Positions 14,280 through 55,362 of a stretch of DNA of 64,000 nucleotides are shown one piece after another. The stretch's first letter is position 1, and each line of letters opens with the position of its first letter. The DNA is from Desulfotomaculum sp. (GTDB lineage Bacteria; Bacillota; Desulfotomaculia; Desulfotomaculales; Desulfallaceae): NCBI GenBank assembly GCA_016841675.1, contig JAENYQ010000009.1:1-64000 (forward strand). The letters are read 5' to 3'. The position numbers and the translations under genes were made by a program. The notes under the pieces were generated by a model. The model was given only the letters and a program-made list of their open reading frames with translations, was not told the DNA's origin and ran no database searches.

Positions 14280-16250
14280 ATGACCATTAAAAAGAATGCT
14301 GTCGAAACTAATAAAGAAAAGGGGCACACCTCCATCAGCGATGAAAAGTCCCCAATTAAGGTTGTCCTGGTCGGTAACCCTAATGTGGGCAAGTCGGTTT
14401 ATTTTCACCGGCTTACCGGCCAATACGTGGATGTATCCAACTTCCCCGGCACGACCATGGAGTTTATTTGTTCTCGGTTTGGGTGCGATTTCCTGGTGGA
14501 CACCCCCGGGGCTTACGGACTGTCATCATTTACCCCGGAGGAAGCACAGGTGCGGGACGAGGTGCTCTCGGCCGACCTGGTTATAAATGTGGTGGATTCG
14601 GTGCACTTGTACCGGGACCTTTTTCTTACTTACCAGCTGGCTGATGCCGGGGTGCCTATGGTGGTGGCCCTGAACATGGTGGACGAGCTTAAGGCCAGGG
14701 GGTTGGAAGTGGACGCCGAAGAACTAGAACGGCGGCTGGGCGTTCCAGTGATACCAACAGCGGCCATTACCGGCCAGGGTGTCGACCGCCTAAGAGAAAG
14801 GCTGGCAGAAGCGCGGCCGGGACACTGCGACCCCGTAGTGGAAAAGCTGCTCGGACGGTACCCGGACCTGGGCCGAGCCGAAGCACTGCTGGTGTTGGAA
14901 GGTGATCCCGACGTTTCCGCCCGCCGCGGGGTGGAACCGGGTCAGCAGAGGGAAGCCATCTACGCTACAAGGCGGCGTCGGGTTAACGATACTGCCTCAG
15001 CTGTACTGTTTGAGAGAGGTGCTGACGCCGGGTTGGCCACCCGATTGGGACATTGGCTGATTAACCCCCTGACCGGTATTCCGGCTTTAATATTTACTTT
15101 ATGGTTAACTTACGAACTGGTGGGCGTTTTCTTTGCCCAAACAGTGGTTGGTTTTACCGAAGGTACGTTAATGGGTGATTACTACGAGCCGTTGGTGCGG
15201 TTGCTGTTGTCCCGATTCCTTGACCTGGATGCTACGCTGGGCACAATCCTGGCCGGGCAGTTCGGGCTATTAACGATGGCAGTTACTTACCTGTTTGGCT
15301 TATTGTTCCCACTGGTGGCTGGTTTTTACCTAGTACTGTCCATGCTTGAGGACTCGGGTTATCTGCCCCGCATTGCCATTCTCACAGACCGGGTGATGAG
15401 TTACCTGGGGCTGAATGGCCAGGCGGTAATCCCGCTGGTGCTGGGCTTCGGCTGTGTAACCATGGCCATTATCACCACTCGTATGTTGGCCTCGGACCGG
15501 GAGCGGCGTATCGCCACGTTCCTGCTAGCCCTTACCGTGCCCTGCTCGGCCCAGTTGGCTTTTGTAGCAGCCATTCTGGGCGGCCTGGGGGCAGGTTATG
15601 TTATTTTGTATGGGTTATTGATTTTGAGTATTATGTTGGGGGTGGGCACCGTGCTGGGGCGGTTCCTGCCCGGGCACACCGTGCCGCTACTTATCGATTT
15701 GCCCACCATGCGCTTGCCCCGGCCGAGCAATGTGCTGATGAAAACATGGGCCCGGACCTTCGGCTTTATTAAGGAAGCTTTTCCAATCTTTCTGGGCGGT
15801 GCTTTAACTTTAAGCATGCTGCGGGTAACCGGCCTAATGGAGCGGATTGAACACGCTATGGAGCCGTTAACCACTGGCTGGCTGCTGCTGCCCGGGGAAA
15901 CCGCCTATGCGTTCATTATGGGTTTTATTCGCCGTGATTTTGGCACCGCCGGGATTATCAGCATCCCCATGGAGCCGTTGCAGACGTTCGTGGCCCTGGT
16001 TACCCTGACTCTGTTTGTGCCCTGTATTGCCACGACGTTGATTATTTTTAAGGAACGGGGCTGGCGGGAAGGGGCGGCTATATGGCTGGCCATATTCTTC
16101 CTGGCCTTCCTGTTTGGCGGGTTGGTGGCCCACCTGGTACATTTCTTCCAGGGTATCAGTTCTGCGCTGGTGCTGCCCTTAACTGCACTGGTAGTGATAC
16201 TGGCGCTTTTTGTAACCGTGGCGGCCTCACGGCAGCGGGGAACTGGTTAA
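14280..16250 (+). CDS. feoB: FeoB, ferrous iron permease with GTPase domain
   Basis: Fe2+ uptake permease of the cytoplasmic membrane. An N-terminal G domain shows G1 GNPNVGKS (32-39), G2 NFPGTT, G3 DTPGAYGL and G4 NMVD, followed by a helical GDI-like segment (VEKLLGRYPDLGRAEALL) and a membrane domain with the two Gate regions. Translation probably starts at ATG 14280, since AGAGGA lies before it while the ATG at 14253 has no ribosome site; this gives 656 residues. The serine in GKSVYF replaces the usual TTLFN continuation. feoA lies just upstream, and a Fur-family regulator is encoded about 2.6 kb downstream. There is no fused FeoC. Confidence 0.93.
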   Translation: MTIKKNAVETNKEKGHTSISDEKSPIKVVLVGNPNVGKSVYFHRLTGQYVDVSNFPGTTMEFICSRFGCDFLVDTPGAYGLSSFTPEEAQVRDEVLSADLVINVVDSVHLYRDLFLTYQLADAGVPMVVALNMVDELKARGLEVDAEELERRLGVPVIPTAAITGQGVDRLRERLAEARPGHCDPVVEKLLGRYPDLGRAEALLVLEGDPDVSARRGVEPGQQREAIYATRRRRVNDTASAVLFERGADAGLATRLGHWLINPLTGIPALIFTLWLTYELVGVFFAQTVVGFTEGTLMGDYYEPLVRLLLSRFLDLDATLGTILAGQFGLLTMAVTYLFGLLFPLVAGFYLVLSMLEDSGYLPRIAILTDRVMSYLGLNGQAVIPLVLGFGCVTMAIITTRMLASDRERRIATFLLALTVPCSAQLAFVAAILGGLGAGYVILYGLLILSIMLGVGTVLGRFLPGHTVPLLIDLPTMRLPRPSNVLMKTWARTFGFIKEAFPIFLGGALTLSMLRVTGLMERIEHAMEPLTTGWLLLPGETAYAFIMGFIRRDFGTAGIISIPMEPLQTFVALVTLTLFVPCIATTLIIFKERGWREGAAIWLAIFFLAFLFGGLVAHLVHFFQGISSALVLPLTALVVILALFVTVAASRQRGTG

Positions 16251-19424: not shown

Positions 19425-19448
19425 AAAAAGTAGCCTGTCCCCTTTTTT
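19425..19448. repeat. AGTAGCCTGTCCCC repeat (single arm)
   Basis: AAAAAGTAGCCTGTCCCCTT followed by T4, one arm of the palindrome seen complete at 20571-20626 and 21793-21851. It ends with a T-run and may have been left by a partial insertion or deletion. Confidence 0.6.
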
Positions 19449-20570: not shown

Positions 20571-20626
20571 AAAAAAGGGGACAGGCTACTTTTTTGCTCT
20601 GTAAAAAGTTGCCTGTCCCCTTTTTC
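20571..20626. repeat. GGGGACAGGCTACTTTTT palindrome, left of metE-like gene
   Basis: AAAAAAGGGGACAGGCTACT ... AAGTTGCCTGTCCCCTTTTT: two arms of about 22 bp, imperfectly complementary, around an 11-base loop. The A/T-rich outer ends make it a possible bidirectional terminator. A second copy lies just after the gene at 21793-21851. Such paired elements resemble REP/BIME sequences mobilised by RAYT transposases elsewhere. Confidence 0.75.
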
Positions 20627-21792: not shown

Positions 21793-21851
21793 CAAAAAAG
21801 GGGACAGGCTACTTTTTTGCATTTTTAAAAAGTTCCTGTTCCCTTTTTTAT
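21793..21851. repeat. GGGGACAGGCTACTTTTT palindrome, right of metE-like gene
   Basis: GCAAAAAAGGGGACAGGCTA followed by a T-run and loop, then AAAAAGTTCCTGTTCCCTTT. Same structure as 20571-20626 with slight decay in the right arm. It lies 25 bp after the metE-like stop and can act as its terminator. Confidence 0.75.
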
Positions 21852-36185: not shown

Positions 36186-36199
36186 GGGGAATGTCCCCA
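36186..36199. repeat. GGGGAATGTCCCC palindrome
   Basis: TGGGGAATGTCCCCA, a near-perfect palindrome of the GGGGACA/TGTCCCC family, in the short gap between spoVE and murG and just before the murG ribosome site. Confidence 0.55.
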
Positions 36200-36214
36200 G
36201 ATGAGGTGATCATT

Positions 36215-37342
36215 TTGCGCTTTATTGTCACCGGCGGCGGTACTGGCGGCCATATCTATCCGGCCCTGGCTATAGCCGGCGGTATGCAGCAACGGTATCC
36301 AGGCTGTCGGATTATGTATGTCGGCACCGCTCGGGGACTGGAGTCCGACTTGGTTCCTGCGGTTGGGATTGATTTTCGTGCGGTGCGGGCAGTGGGTATC
36401 AAGCGCAGCCTGTCGCTGCAAAACTTGAAAGTGCCCTTGGAAGTGGTTGCCGGTTACCGGGAAGCCCGGCGGCTGATCCGAAGCTTTGCCCCGGATGCGG
36501 TGGTGGGTACAGGAGGGTATGTATGCGGACCGGTGGTGCTGGCTGCGGCCAGGATGAAAATACCCACTCTGATTCACGAACAAAATGCGCTGCCGGGGAT
36601 CACTAACCGAATCTTATCTCGGTTTGTGGACCGGGTGGCGGTGACCTTCGAGGATTCTTTAAAACATTTTCCCGGCCAGGCTAAGCCGCGGCTAACCGGT
36701 TTGCCGGTACGTTCCGAGGTACTGACTGCGGGCCGGGAGGCAGCTCGGACCAAGTACAGCGTAAAGGATGAGGAATTGTTTGTTCTATCCTTCGGTGGTA
36801 GCCAGGGCGCTCGTAGTATCAACAGTGCTGTGGCCTCTGTAGCTGGATGGATTGCCGGTAGGCCAGACCTTAAATGGCTGCACGTTACCGGCCAGGGGCA
36901 GTACGATAGTTTTATGGACATGCTAAAGCGGAAAGGGGACACACCTCAACAAAATAGAGGAGCCGTGGAAGTACCTGGTAATCTGATTGTTCAGCCCTAC
37001 ATGTACGAGATGCCGGATGCGCTGGCAGCGGCGGACTTGGTGGTGGGCCGGGCCGGTGCCGCCAGCATTGCTGAGATAACGGTCCGTGGGCTGCCCGCAT
37101 TGCTGGTACCGTTCCCCTATGCCACCGCCAATCATCAGGAGCACAACGCCCGGGCGTTGGTTGACCGGGAGGCGGCAGTAATGATCCTGGATGCCGAATT
37201 TTCCGGTACTGGGTTGGCCGCTAGGCTGGAAGAATTGTTGGGTGAACCAGAACGTCTTAAGGCCATGGCTGCATCCAGCCGTGGACTTGGCAAACCACGA
37301 GCATTGGATGATATTTTAGATGCACTGGCGGAACTGCTTTAA
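36215..37342 (+). CDS. murG: MurG, lipid II-forming GlcNAc transferase, with an insertion
   Basis: Peripheral membrane GT-B enzyme that adds GlcNAc to lipid I. N-terminal RFIVTGGGTGGHIYPALAIA, YVGTARGLESDLVP, VVGTGGYVCGPVVLAA, HEQNALPGITNRIL, SFGGSQGARSINSAV, ADLVVGRAGAASIAEI and FPYATANHQEHNA all present. TTG 36215 follows GAGGTGAT and places the start at the usual MurG N-terminus; 375 residues. Between HVTG and PYMYEMPDALAA there are about 12 more residues than in E. coli MurG (KRKGDTPQQNRG), encoded by AAAGGGGACACACCTCA at about 36932, a copy of the intergenic repeat. The insertion is in frame and sits in a surface loop of the C-terminal domain, so the enzyme is probably still active. Confidence 0.93.
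   Translation: MRFIVTGGGTGGHIYPALAIAGGMQQRYPGCRIMYVGTARGLESDLVPAVGIDFRAVRAVGIKRSLSLQNLKVPLEVVAGYREARRLIRSFAPDAVVGTGGYVCGPVVLAAARMKIPTLIHEQNALPGITNRILSRFVDRVAVTFEDSLKHFPGQAKPRLTGLPVRSEVLTAGREAARTKYSVKDEELFVLSFGGSQGARSINSAVASVAGWIAGRPDLKWLHVTGQGQYDSFMDMLKRKGDTPQQNRGAVEVPGNLIVQPYMYEMPDALAAADLVVGRAGAASIAEITVRGLPALLVPFPYATANHQEHNARALVDREAAVMILDAEFSGTGLAARLEELLGEPERLKAMAASSRGLGKPRALDDILDALAELL
36929..36965. repeat. GGGGACACACCTC repeat inside murG
   Basis: GCGGAAAGGGGACACACCTC, the same word as found twice after murC (38947 and 38981). In-frame within murG; the inserted codons correspond to the loop that is longer than in other MurG proteins. Confidence 0.7.
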
Positions 37343-37579
37343 AAAAAACGTCAGGAGTCAGAATGTAATAACGGCTTATCTCTAAGTATTCCAAATCCGA
37401 TTCCTGAATTATAGTTATTTAACCTTTAGTTTTCAACCTCTAACTTCTAATGTGTGGGACAAGCCAAGGGGGCGTCGTGTTAATAGTAACACCAATTTAA
37501 ATTGGCGCATAATATGAGATATCCTCTCCTGGCTTGCCGTACTTGCACCAAACGGGTGCAGGAAGGAGCTGATTGGCGG

Positions 37580-38971
37580 GTGACAGAAATACCGGGTAAG
37601 GTTCACTTTATTGGCATTGGTGGAGCCGGAATGAGCGGCCTGGCTAGAGTGCTGCTTGAGCAGGGATTTGATGTACGGGGGTCTGATTTAAGCAGCACGC
37701 CGGTGACCGAAAGACTACAAACCATTGGAGCCGCCGTATATACAGGGCACTGTGCAAACAACATCAGGGATGCGGAATTGGTGGTGGTCTCTACAGCCAT
37801 AGATTCGGCTAATCCGGAACTGCAGGAAGCAACCAAAAAAGGCGTTCCGGTAATTCACCGGGCCGATTTACTGGGACTGTTAATGAACCGGCAAAGCGGC
37901 CTGGCTATAGCCGGGGCACACGGTAAAACCACCACCACTGCCATGCTGGCGTTGGTAATGGAAAAATGCCACCTGGATCCAACAATACTCATCGGAGGTG
38001 AATTGACCAATATTGGCGGCAACGCTAAGCTGGGTCGGGGCGAGTACCTGGTGGCGGAAGCAGACGAAAGCGATAAATCATTTCTAAAGCTGAAACCTTA
38101 TTTGGCTGTGGTGACCAATATTGAGGACGATCATTTAGAACACTACGGCTCGGTGGAAAAGATCGTCGAAGCATTCCGGCAATTCCTGCGTGGAATAAAC
38201 CCGGGTGGTGCTGCAGTACTTTGTTTTGACGATGTGGTTGTCAGAGATGTTTCCCGCGCGTGCGGGGAAAGAATTATTACTTACGCTGTAGAATACCCGG
38301 AGGCCGATTATGTATTAAATGATATCCGATTGCACAGTAGCGGGTCTGCGGCGGAAGTTTATTACCGGGGGCAGCACTTGGGCCGCCTGCAACTTGCCGT
38401 TCCCGGCCGGCATAACCTGGCCAACGCCCTGGCTGTGGTGGCAGTAGGACGGTTTATTGGCATTTCATTTCCCGAAATGGCGGCTGCGCTGCGGGACTTC
38501 TCAGGTGCCGGCAGACGTTACCAACTTATGGGCCGGGCAGGCGGCGTTACCGTGGTGGACGATTACGCGCACCACCCCACTGAAATAGACGCCACGCTTA
38601 AAGCGGCCAGGCAGATGCACCCCGGTCGCATTATCACCGTTTTCCAACCGCACCGTTTTTCCAGGACCTCATGGCTGCATCAGCGCTTTGGAAGCTGTTT
38701 TTCTGAAACAGATATGTTAATTATTAACGACATTTACGGCGCCGGAGAAAAACCTTTGGAGGGGATCACCGCACAACTTATTGTGGATGCCGTAGTGGCA
38801 CAGAACGGCCATCGGCCAGTTTTCATTAGCTCGCGTGATGAAACAGTCAAGTATCTGGCTGAGAATCTGCAGGGGGGCGACTTGGTGCTCACCATGGGCG
38901 CGGGCGACGTTTGGAAAACCGGTCCGGAGCTGTTAAAACGGTTAAAGGAAAGGGGACACACCTCAGCTTAA
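37580..38971 (+). CDS. murC: MurC, UDP-MurNAc:L-Ala ligase, C-terminus from repeat
   Basis: First amino-acid-adding Mur ligase; cytoplasmic. KVHFIGIGGAGMSGLARVLL (nucleotide-binding start), AGAHGKTTTTAMLALV (P-loop), EADESDKSFL, NIEDDHLEHYG, DDYAHHPTEIDATL and FQPHRFSRT. GTG 37580 is chosen because AAGGAG lies 11 bases upstream and this matches the usual MurC N-terminus; an upstream frame to 37502 has no ribosome site. 463 residues. The last residues (KERGHTSA) and stop are read from AAAGGGGACACACCTCAGCT, a copy of the dispersed repeat, which is repeated once more in the 3' flank. murB follows after a repeat-filled gap. Confidence 0.93.
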   Translation: MTEIPGKVHFIGIGGAGMSGLARVLLEQGFDVRGSDLSSTPVTERLQTIGAAVYTGHCANNIRDAELVVVSTAIDSANPELQEATKKGVPVIHRADLLGLLMNRQSGLAIAGAHGKTTTTAMLALVMEKCHLDPTILIGGELTNIGGNAKLGRGEYLVAEADESDKSFLKLKPYLAVVTNIEDDHLEHYGSVEKIVEAFRQFLRGINPGGAAVLCFDDVVVRDVSRACGERIITYAVEYPEADYVLNDIRLHSSGSAAEVYYRGQHLGRLQLAVPGRHNLANALAVVAVGRFIGISFPEMAAALRDFSGAGRRYQLMGRAGGVTVVDDYAHHPTEIDATLKAARQMHPGRIITVFQPHRFSRTSWLHQRFGSCFSETDMLIINDIYGAGEKPLEGITAQLIVDAVVAQNGHRPVFISSRDETVKYLAENLQGGDLVLTMGAGDVWKTGPELLKRLKERGHTSA

Positions 38972-39064
38972 GGGGATTAAGGAAAGGGGACACACCTCAA
39001 ATTTCAGGTATTTCTTTGGGGTCGAGGAATGTCCCCAATTGGATGGGGTCGAAGAATGTCCCCA
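38947..39064. repeat. Cluster of GGGGACACACCTCA and GGGGTCGAGGAATGTCCCC repeats
   Basis: Two direct copies of GGAAAGGGGACACACCTCA (38947 and 38981), then GGGGTCGAGGAATGTCCCCA (39019) and GGGGTCGAAGAATGTCCCCA (39045). The first overlaps the murC stop, the last abuts the murB ribosome site, so the whole murC-murB gap is made of repeats. Confidence 0.8.
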
Positions 39065-44689: not shown

Positions 44690-45391
44690 ATGAAGTTTAA
44701 ATCTGTTTACTGGATATTGCTCCTGGTAGGACTGGTCATGGGCCTTATTCTAGCGTTGCAGTTCAGGGTGACCCGTGAAATAATCAAGAATGCACCCCCC
44801 CAGGAGAGAACCGCAGCCCTTTACCAGGAGTTGGAAGAATCTCGGGAAAACCGTGAGGTATTGCAGCACAGGGTATACGAACTGCGTGACCTCCTGGACC
44901 AGTCAGTGGTCGGTCCGGAACTGGCTAATATGAAAGAAGAACTGGACCGCGTGCGCGAACTGGCCGGTATGACCACAATAGAAGGGCCGGGTGTGGAAGT
45001 GACGTTGAATGACAACCCTAACGTACTGCCTCCGGGACAGGACCCCAATAACTTTGTGCTGCACGATGAAGACGTGTTAAGCGTCTTAAACGAATTGAAA
45101 GCAGCCGGGGCCAGGGCAGTCGCCATTAATGACCAGAGGATTATCTCATCTACTGAAGTGCGCTGTATAGGCCCGACCATATTACTAAACAAAAACCAAC
45201 GTTTGAGCCCTCCTTTTGTGATTTCCGCGTTGGGAGACCCGGACACACTGACCAACTCCCTGAAAATGATCAACGGGGTGGTTGATTCGCTACAGCTATG
45301 GGGAATCCAGGTAGACATCAAGAAGGTGGACAAGGTGAAAATACCGGCTTATTCCGGGACATTGACATATAATTACGCTAAACCAAAATAA
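44690..45391 (+). CDS. DUF881 protein (YlxW-like)
   Basis: A 233-residue protein with an N-terminal transmembrane segment (VYWILLLVGLVMGLILALQF), an extracytoplasmic coiled coil (about 45-95) and a C-terminal DUF881 domain (IEGPGVEVTLNDN; VNDQRI-like INDQRIISSTEVRCIGPTIL; near the end, VDSLQLWGIQVDIKK). GGAGG precedes the ATG. B. subtilis has ylxW and ylxX in the same position between divIB and sbp. The exact function is unknown; its position suggests a role in division. Confidence 0.88.
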   Translation: MKFKSVYWILLLVGLVMGLILALQFRVTREIIKNAPPQERTAALYQELEESRENREVLQHRVYELRDLLDQSVVGPELANMKEELDRVRELAGMTTIEGPGVEVTLNDNPNVLPPGQDPNNFVLHDEDVLSVLNELKAAGARAVAINDQRIISSTEVRCIGPTILLNKNQRLSPPFVISALGDPDTLTNSLKMINGVVDSLQLWGIQVDIKKVDKVKIPAYSGTLTYNYAKPK

Positions 45392-45428: not shown

Positions 45429-45491
45429 CGTTGGGGACATTCCTGGCCCCAGAGAAATACCCAAGCTTCAGCAGGTGTGTCCCCTTTCCTT
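45429..45491. repeat. GGGGACATT ... GTGTCCCC repeat
   Basis: TTGGGGACATTCCTGGCCCC ... AGCAGGTGTGTCCCCTTTCC, an inverted relative of the murC-murB repeat cluster (38947-39064). Between the two DUF881 genes. Confidence 0.7.
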
Positions 45492-45542
45492 ATGCAGGCG
45501 GGGTCTTACAGGCTGTGCGAAGATAACGGGAGGAGATTTTCG

Positions 45543-46220
45543 ATGACCGGCAAGACCACCGGATACGTATCCATTATGTTGGTTGCCTTAATCCTGGGCA
45601 TGATGCTGGCGGTCCAATTCCGAGTGGTCAACAGAGCACCGGTCGGGATCTCCACTGACCGGGCCCAGGAAGTAGTGGATGAACTAAAACAAATCGACCG
45701 GGAAAGAGAGTCCTTATATAAAGAAATTAGCGACCTGAACTACAAACTAGAGCAGGTAAACCAGGGTAAAAACGAGGCCATCATGGCGCTAAAGAGTGAA
45801 CTGGAAAAGACGCGCATGAGCGCCGGGCTGATTACCGTCACTGGGCCGGGACTGGAAGTTGTACTGGATAATCCAGATAAGGGTGGCGGGAGTCGGCTGT
45901 CACCAGGGGTATTCATCATATACGCAGAAGACCTGCTCAAAGTGGTTAACGAACTATGGGGTGGCGGTGCTGAGGCTATTTCCATCAACGGACAGCGTAT
46001 TGTTGCCACCACCGAAATTAGGCTGGCTGCACCATTTATCAATATTAACACCCAAAGGGTGGTGCCACCGTACCAGGTGCTGGCTATCGGAGCCCCTGAA
46101 ACACTGGCCAATGCATTGGAGCTGCCGGGCGGGTTGGGGGAATACTTGCGGGACCTAGGGATCGAGATAACGGTGGAAAAACACCAGGAATTGACCGTGC
46201 CGGCTTTTACCGGGGGTTAG
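45543..46220 (+). CDS. DUF881 protein (YlxX-like)
   Basis: A 225-residue paralogue of the preceding gene. Transmembrane segment at the N-terminus (GYVSIMLVALILGMMLAVQF), coiled coil (EVVDELKQIDRERESLYKEI), then the DUF881 domain (VTGPGLEVVLDNP, ISINGQRIVATTEIRLAAPF, GEYLRDLGIEITVEKHQEL). ATG 45543 is chosen: GGGAGGAG lies upstream. Typical tandem arrangement with sbp downstream. Confidence 0.88.
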   Translation: MTGKTTGYVSIMLVALILGMMLAVQFRVVNRAPVGISTDRAQEVVDELKQIDRERESLYKEISDLNYKLEQVNQGKNEAIMALKSELEKTRMSAGLITVTGPGLEVVLDNPDKGGGSRLSPGVFIIYAEDLLKVVNELWGGGAEAISINGQRIVATTEIRLAAPFININTQRVVPPYQVLAIGAPETLANALELPGGLGEYLRDLGIEITVEKHQELTVPAFTGG

Positions 46221-50257: not shown

Positions 50258-50286
50258 TTGGTGTGTCCCCTATTCAAGTGGGGACG
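50258..50286. repeat. GTGTGTCCCC ... GTGGGGACG palindrome
   Basis: GTTGGTGTGTCCCCTATTCA followed by AGTGGGGACGTT: TGTCCCC and GGGGAC arms around a 9-base loop, of the same family as the murC-murB repeats. In the spoIIGA-sigE gap. Confidence 0.6.
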
Positions 50287-55184: not shown

Positions 55185-55362
55185 TTTAGGGACATTGTAC
55201 GTTAGGGACATTATACAGACGTTGACATTTACACGTTAGTGACAGTCATAAGTTGGGGACATTCATATATTGGGGACATTCCTCCGCAGGAGGTGTGTCC
55301 CCTGTCCTTAAACGGAGGTGTGTCCCCTATCCTTAGACGGGGGTGTGTCCCCTACCCTTATT
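55185..55362. repeat. Array of GGGGACATT and GTGTCCCC repeats
   Basis: Degenerate copies of (G)GGGACATT (55188 to about 55282, five units with spacers of 12-25 bp), then three GTGTGTCCCC copies (55291, 55318, 55345) separated by about 27 bp, in opposite orientation to the first set. It lies upstream of the beta-CASP nuclease, in a 520-bp gene-free stretch. Confidence 0.75.

Follow-up and report, generated by a model that had tools for sequence, protein, structure and literature searches.

A dispersed hairpin repeat lies in frame within murG and other conserved genes of a Desulfotruncus-related Firmicute

Rickettsia provides the best-known palindromic repeats that enter proteins, and small populations could be the reason why they are tolerated there. 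These are the Rickettsia palindromic elements (RPEs; Ogata et al. 2000, 2002; via PMC10969869 and PMC3733652). Intragenic GTAG and CGTC REPs encode 20–30 residues and frequently lie in genes for DNA synthesis or repair, that for DNA ligase being one, and a GGGGWSAS motif has been reported at TIR-associated tyrosine transposases (PMC3733652); a search of the main text of that survey for Firmicutes or Clostridi- gives no hit. REPINs are presumed to be mobilised in trans by a RAYT, and the REPs of SBW25 are almost entirely extragenic, with only 14 of the 1,067 occurrences of the top 16-mers overlapping genes (PMC3116915). The repeat described here has the head GGGGACA, for which a text search of papers returns only unrelated primers.

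The window, the whole 64-kb stretch of DNA analysed, is contig 29 of a 3.84-Mb genome in 162 contigs whose relatives are Desulfotruncus and BRH_c8a. The nearest of these, Peptococcaceae bacterium BRH_c8a, is a MAG whose name occurs in an Opalinus Clay study (PMC5067608). Our genus-level comparison spans four genomes, with this genome and BRH_c8a both drafts. The murG ORF scores 286.9 bits against TIGR01133 (cutoff 250.25), which identifies it as MurG, and the true start is probably the TTG at 36215. An earlier note, made from the sequence alone, had described a dispersed repeat inserted in frame inside this gene. The 17-mer AAAGGGGACACACCTCA is indeed in frame with the ORF and begins a longer remnant (Table 1) that codes for KGDTPQQNRG and comprises the left arm AAAGGGGACACACCTCA, the loop ACAAAATA and GAGGA, the start of the right arm; the remnant lacks the outer 12 nt of that arm, ATGTCCCCAACG.

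Alignment with 29 homologues from relatives places a lineage-specific excess in MurG exactly at the repeat site, with 7 more residues than most family members, 6 more than BRH_c8a and 8 more than two congeners (G001 and G003). The earlier figure of 12 residues beyond E. coli is thus about right as a total, with part of that difference belonging to the family as a whole. At the DNA level, this genome reads AAAGGGGACACACCTCAACAAAATAGAGGA and then GTGGAAGTACCTGG, which aligns with the repeat-free congener G001. In murG of BRH_c8a, AGAGGGGGCAAGGAATGTCCCCAACG stands in frame at the same codons, with the outer arms kept and the apical part deleted, and no remnant is present in murG of the two congeners or of 12 family members. 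The repeat-free relatives lack the extra residues altogether, rather than encoding the same residues with unrelated codons, which supports the proposal that an essential gene has tolerated a mobile repeat as extra codons. A chance codon similarity is vanishingly improbable: the murG match covers 17 exact bases of a repeat with 18 copies, against none in controls, it coincides precisely with an indel specific to the lineage, and the sister species has a further piece of the element there. Judged from these alignments, the extra MurG residues are repeat-encoded, and BRH_c8a has this element at the corresponding position too, shortened in another way. The AlphaFold model of MurG (mean pLDDT 86.8), which best matches MurG structures from E. 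coli and Pseudomonas, predicts that the insert, residues 250–259, forms a low-confidence loop (pLDDT <50) between a helix (235–248) and a strand (265–268).

The murG insertion probably predates the split between this genome and BRH_c8a, to judge from the shared site. A single insertion in their common ancestor likely added the surface-loop codons, after which the hairpin would have been trimmed of its apical part in BRH_c8a and of its 12-nt outer right arm in this lineage. Given one parent copy with the loop seen here, the right arm stands in a different frame in the two species, which may reflect a small extra indel or two separate insertions at one murG site. Independent hot-spot insertions, one per lineage, would account for these frames if the loops were alike, and for the flanking codons that differ between the two species. 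However, site and orientation are identical, the parts kept in the two species fit one standard unit (KGDTP...ECPQR), and the insertions in GerA, an OKR-type decarboxylase and PurL are plainly common to both, so that two insertions are unlikely and we favor a single ancestral event.

Beyond murG, copies of this hairpin element are dispersed through the genome. The 17-mer AAAGGGGACACACCTCA has 18 exact copies in the genome and its 12-base core, GGGGACACACCT, has 123, with no match to the reversed-pattern control in either case. Within the window, AAAGGGGACACACCTCA is met at 8 sites with at most 3 mismatches against 0.2 expected, a count reached in 0 of 100 shuffles; the site at 14317, with 3 mismatches, is probably a chance match. 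As the note had observed, the repeat word also occurs in intergenic clusters, and several of the window copies are intergenic (Table 1). Aligned copies show that the intact unit is two-armed, running from AAAGGGGACACACCTC through a loop to GAGGAATGTCCCCAACG, and measures ~40 or ~62 bp, with a core of mostly 31 nt in the short form and mostly 51–53 nt in the long form. The short form has the layout GGGGACACACCTCC-nnn-GGAGGAATGTCCCC and folds as DNA into a 7-bp GGGGACA/TGTCCCC stem, a 2x2 internal loop, a 5-bp CCTCC/GGAGG stem and a triloop (dG -11.9 kcal/mol, z -5.1). Both forms occur singly and in tandem. All six frames are open in 4 of 14 intact short copies, against 0.044 expected from shuffles, and in none of 30 long copies; a view of the element as open in every one of the six frames is only partly true, and its stop-poverty is partial.

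Table 1. Repeat copies and associated genes in the 64-kb window
Feature	Position	Strand	Remarks
Sister family GGGGACAGGCTACTTTT, copy	19426..19442	-	intergenic
Sister family, full inverted pair (REPIN)	20577..20620	.	intergenic
Sister family, copy	21800..21816	+	intergenic
Right-arm remnant GGGGAATGTCCCCA	36186..36199	+	between ftsW and murG; overlaps called murG start
murG ORF	36191..37342	+	383 codons as called; TIGR01133 match
17-mer AAAGGGGACACACCTCA and remnant in murG	36932..36961	+	17-mer at 36932-36948; remnant end approximate
murC ORF	37502..38971	+	last six codons (RGHTSA) and stop inside repeat
17-mer copy giving the MurC C-terminus	38949..38965	+	
Near-complete long-form unit	38983..39036	+	intergenic, 3' of murC
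Second right arm near the preceding unit	39057-39063		
Repeat pair between ORFs 44690-45391 and 45477-46220	45433..45487	-	antisense to flanking genes
Lone left arm GGGGACACACC	50260..50270	-	intergenic
Unit cluster	55272..55352	-	intergenic; one right arm, three left arms

Neighboring copies also differ between relatives. The gap between ftsW and murG holds a fuller repeat unit in BRH_c8a than here, and the repeat-derived end of MurC is common to both species (ERGHPSA in BRH_c8a); among the matches listed, the MurC of Desulfotruncus ends in ...RLKE.

Insertion into genes extends well beyond the window. Clusters were gathered from stretches around the listed GGGGACACACCT copies, with about 23 of the 123 sites lying off the list and partly unsampled; ORFs were called mechanically, and a cluster is counted as intragenic when it falls inside an ORF of at least 150 aa. 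On this basis 18 of 79 distinct clusters (23%) are intragenic and 61 lie outside, and murG, for which the note had suggested a search of other coding sequences, is not special. Among the host genes are those for LigA, Mfd, TopB, PurL, GerA, StiP, TreY (malto-oligosyltrehalose synthase), RusA, a bacterial PH-domain protein and an OKR-type decarboxylase with two repeat sites. The repeat further reaches the ends of proteins, namely the N-terminus of a ProB-like kinase and the C-termini of DivIVA and of a thioredoxin-like [2Fe-2S] protein. As read from the ORFs, it adds amino acids to murG and to more than a dozen other conserved genes with reading frames unbroken. In a LivF-like ABC ATPase (L123:1829-2710), three tandem in-frame units follow the Walker A region, and an 860-aa ORF (L021:2-2581) matching neither Pfam nor NCBIfam contains KERGHTSSPI twice, separately.

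At the same site, orthologues are found empty, with a single unit, with tandem units or with a partly deleted one, and across these genes the repeat disperses, resides in frame, is gained, grows in tandem and shrinks. PurL has two units here, one in BRH_c8a and none in G001 or G008, and the OKR decarboxylase carries an internal tandem pair here and in BRH_c8a with none in G001 or G008. The GerA repeat is likewise confined to this genome and BRH_c8a. Mfd is filled here and 30 nt shorter in BRH_c8a, where a footprint (AGGAAA|CAATT) remains and for which replication slippage is an equally possible cause; no clear target-site duplication is visible at this one filled/short pair. LigA is 22 aa longer here than in BRH_c8a, which also keeps a footprint, and the TopB insert of ~60 aa is found in this genome alone. 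In this TopB, a DNA topoisomerase III (L145:436-2679), the extra residues are stacked units placed just before the conserved GTPATRAEIIEKL. Between this genome and BRH_c8a, dN/dS is 0.07–0.19 in seven insertion-bearing genes, and such purifying selection argues that these are working genes.

The orientation of the copies bears on whether they are kept for a function, for instance as a binding site or, at the mRNA or DNA level, as a hairpin that modulates expression. Seventeen of the 18 intragenic clusters are in sense orientation, the antisense one being that in RusA, compared with 33 sense and 15 antisense among the 48 intergenic clusters between co-directional genes (p about 0.05), and the GerA copy is nearly unchanged between the two species. 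Both observations would suit functional retention, yet the orientation bias is weak evidence, the occupied sites differ between species, and in both murG and Mfd one lineage has shed arms or the complete hairpin. We consider retention for function quite improbable; most likely the extra residues are neutral passengers. Elsewhere, 2 of 22 clusters are intragenic in an order-level relative (G034) and 2 of 22 in a family member (G013); these four lie in a TPP enzyme, two PPDK_N proteins and a 150-aa ORF with no Pfam match. The TPP enzyme of G034 and the two PPDK_N proteins of G013 (L263, L275, L276) carry their copies in frame, one of them antisense.

A second repeat family in the same genome, GGGGACAGGCTACTTTT, has an identical GGGGACA head and 98 copies at no more than 1 mismatch. 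The GGGGWSAS motif is matched by the heads of both families, GGGGACAC and GGGGACAG. The sister repeat forms inverted pairs and flanks a Y1_Tnp gene (C83:7995-8330) in inverted orientation, an organization that is that of a REPIN/RAYT system. None of 45 sampled sister clusters lies inside a gene, against 18 of 79 clusters of the gene-invading repeat (Fisher p 0.0003). A T-tract follows the sister hairpin; the short form of the gene-invading repeat has none. Other Y1_Tnp loci (L046, L213) have different GGGGACA-headed inverted repeats nearby, GGGGACAGGGACTTGTC here and GGGGACAGGTACCTTGTCCC in G019. With differing repeats of this head at several Y1_Tnp loci, one head seems to serve several transposases.

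We propose a Y1 transposase for the gene-invading repeat because one is encoded in this genome, its gene flanked by a sister repeat whose head is identical. The element would move in trans as single-stranded hairpin DNA through a Y1 (HUH) REP/TIR-associated tyrosine transposase that recognizes the GGGGACA head (GGGGWSAS consensus). Trans mobilization is inferred, since the Y1_Tnp loci inspected, which span 8 genomes, are nowhere flanked by GGGGACACACC, none of these loci has a Y1_Tnp gene with GGGGACACACC ends (a full-length autonomous element), and no Y1_Tnp clade is common to all copy-rich genomes examined. Alternatively, the repeat might have spread passively, through slippage, template switching or gene conversion between hairpins, with tandems and footprints as replication errors. 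The tandem duplications of 42 bp (PurL, LivF-like) and 39 bp (OKR) and the in-frame hairpin deletions are typical of slippage, and no inspected transposase gene is flanked by the gene-invading repeat; on the other hand, it is difficult to see how the repeat could have reached some 79 separate loci, or filled sites that are empty elsewhere (as at TopB), unless it transposes, and the same-headed sister repeat does flank a Y1 transposase. Passive spread therefore seems improbable, and the reading we prefer, at a probability of about 0.82, is that of a GGGGWSAS-headed hairpin element of REP/TIR type that a Y1 transposase probably mobilizes in trans and whose in-frame insertions are tolerated and then resized.

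Under this proposal, copies may survive in genes because the short form has few stops in any frame and no T-tract terminator. Purifying selection would keep only in-frame insertions, mostly in loops, and in-frame shortenings, and copies, once inserted, would shrink or duplicate in tandem in multiples of three. We further suggest, tentatively, that this REP-type element might systematically supply a Desulfotruncus-related Firmicute lineage with new protein segments, sharing its transposase with a strictly intergenic sister, with genic tolerance set by sequence (stop-poor, no terminator tract).

The arrangement resembles the RPEs in that a palindromic dispersed repeat lies in frame in unrelated conserved genes and adds residues, with empty orthologues here. 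RPEs, however, measure ~150 bp (a review figure) and belong to intracellular alphaproteobacteria, whereas the present repeat is ~40 or ~62 bp, has a GGGGACA head and resides in a Desulfotruncus relative; shrinkage and tandem growth between sister species, as seen here, also set it apart. Like the intragenic GTAG/CGTC REPs, it has hit ligA, mfd, topB and RusA, but its head is neither GTAG nor CGTC. The TIRYT repeats (PMC3733652) share the GGGGWSAS terminus, and the sister family flanks a Y1 transposase, although no transposase is found next to the gene-invading repeat. REPINs (PMC3116915) are likewise high-copy, short, imperfect and dispersed palindromes with inverted spaced arms, but 23% of clusters are intragenic here (18/79) and the gene-invading repeat flanks no RAYT gene at the loci inspected. 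What is new is another repeat family and host, the sister-species intermediates and the sister repeat that is intergenic only. The case, in Firmicutes related to sulfate reducers, lets one follow in sister species how the repeat inserts, grows in tandem and shrinks at identical codons, and a same-headed sister repeat never met inside genes provides a built-in control within one genome, so that what admits a mobile repeat into coding sequence becomes testable.
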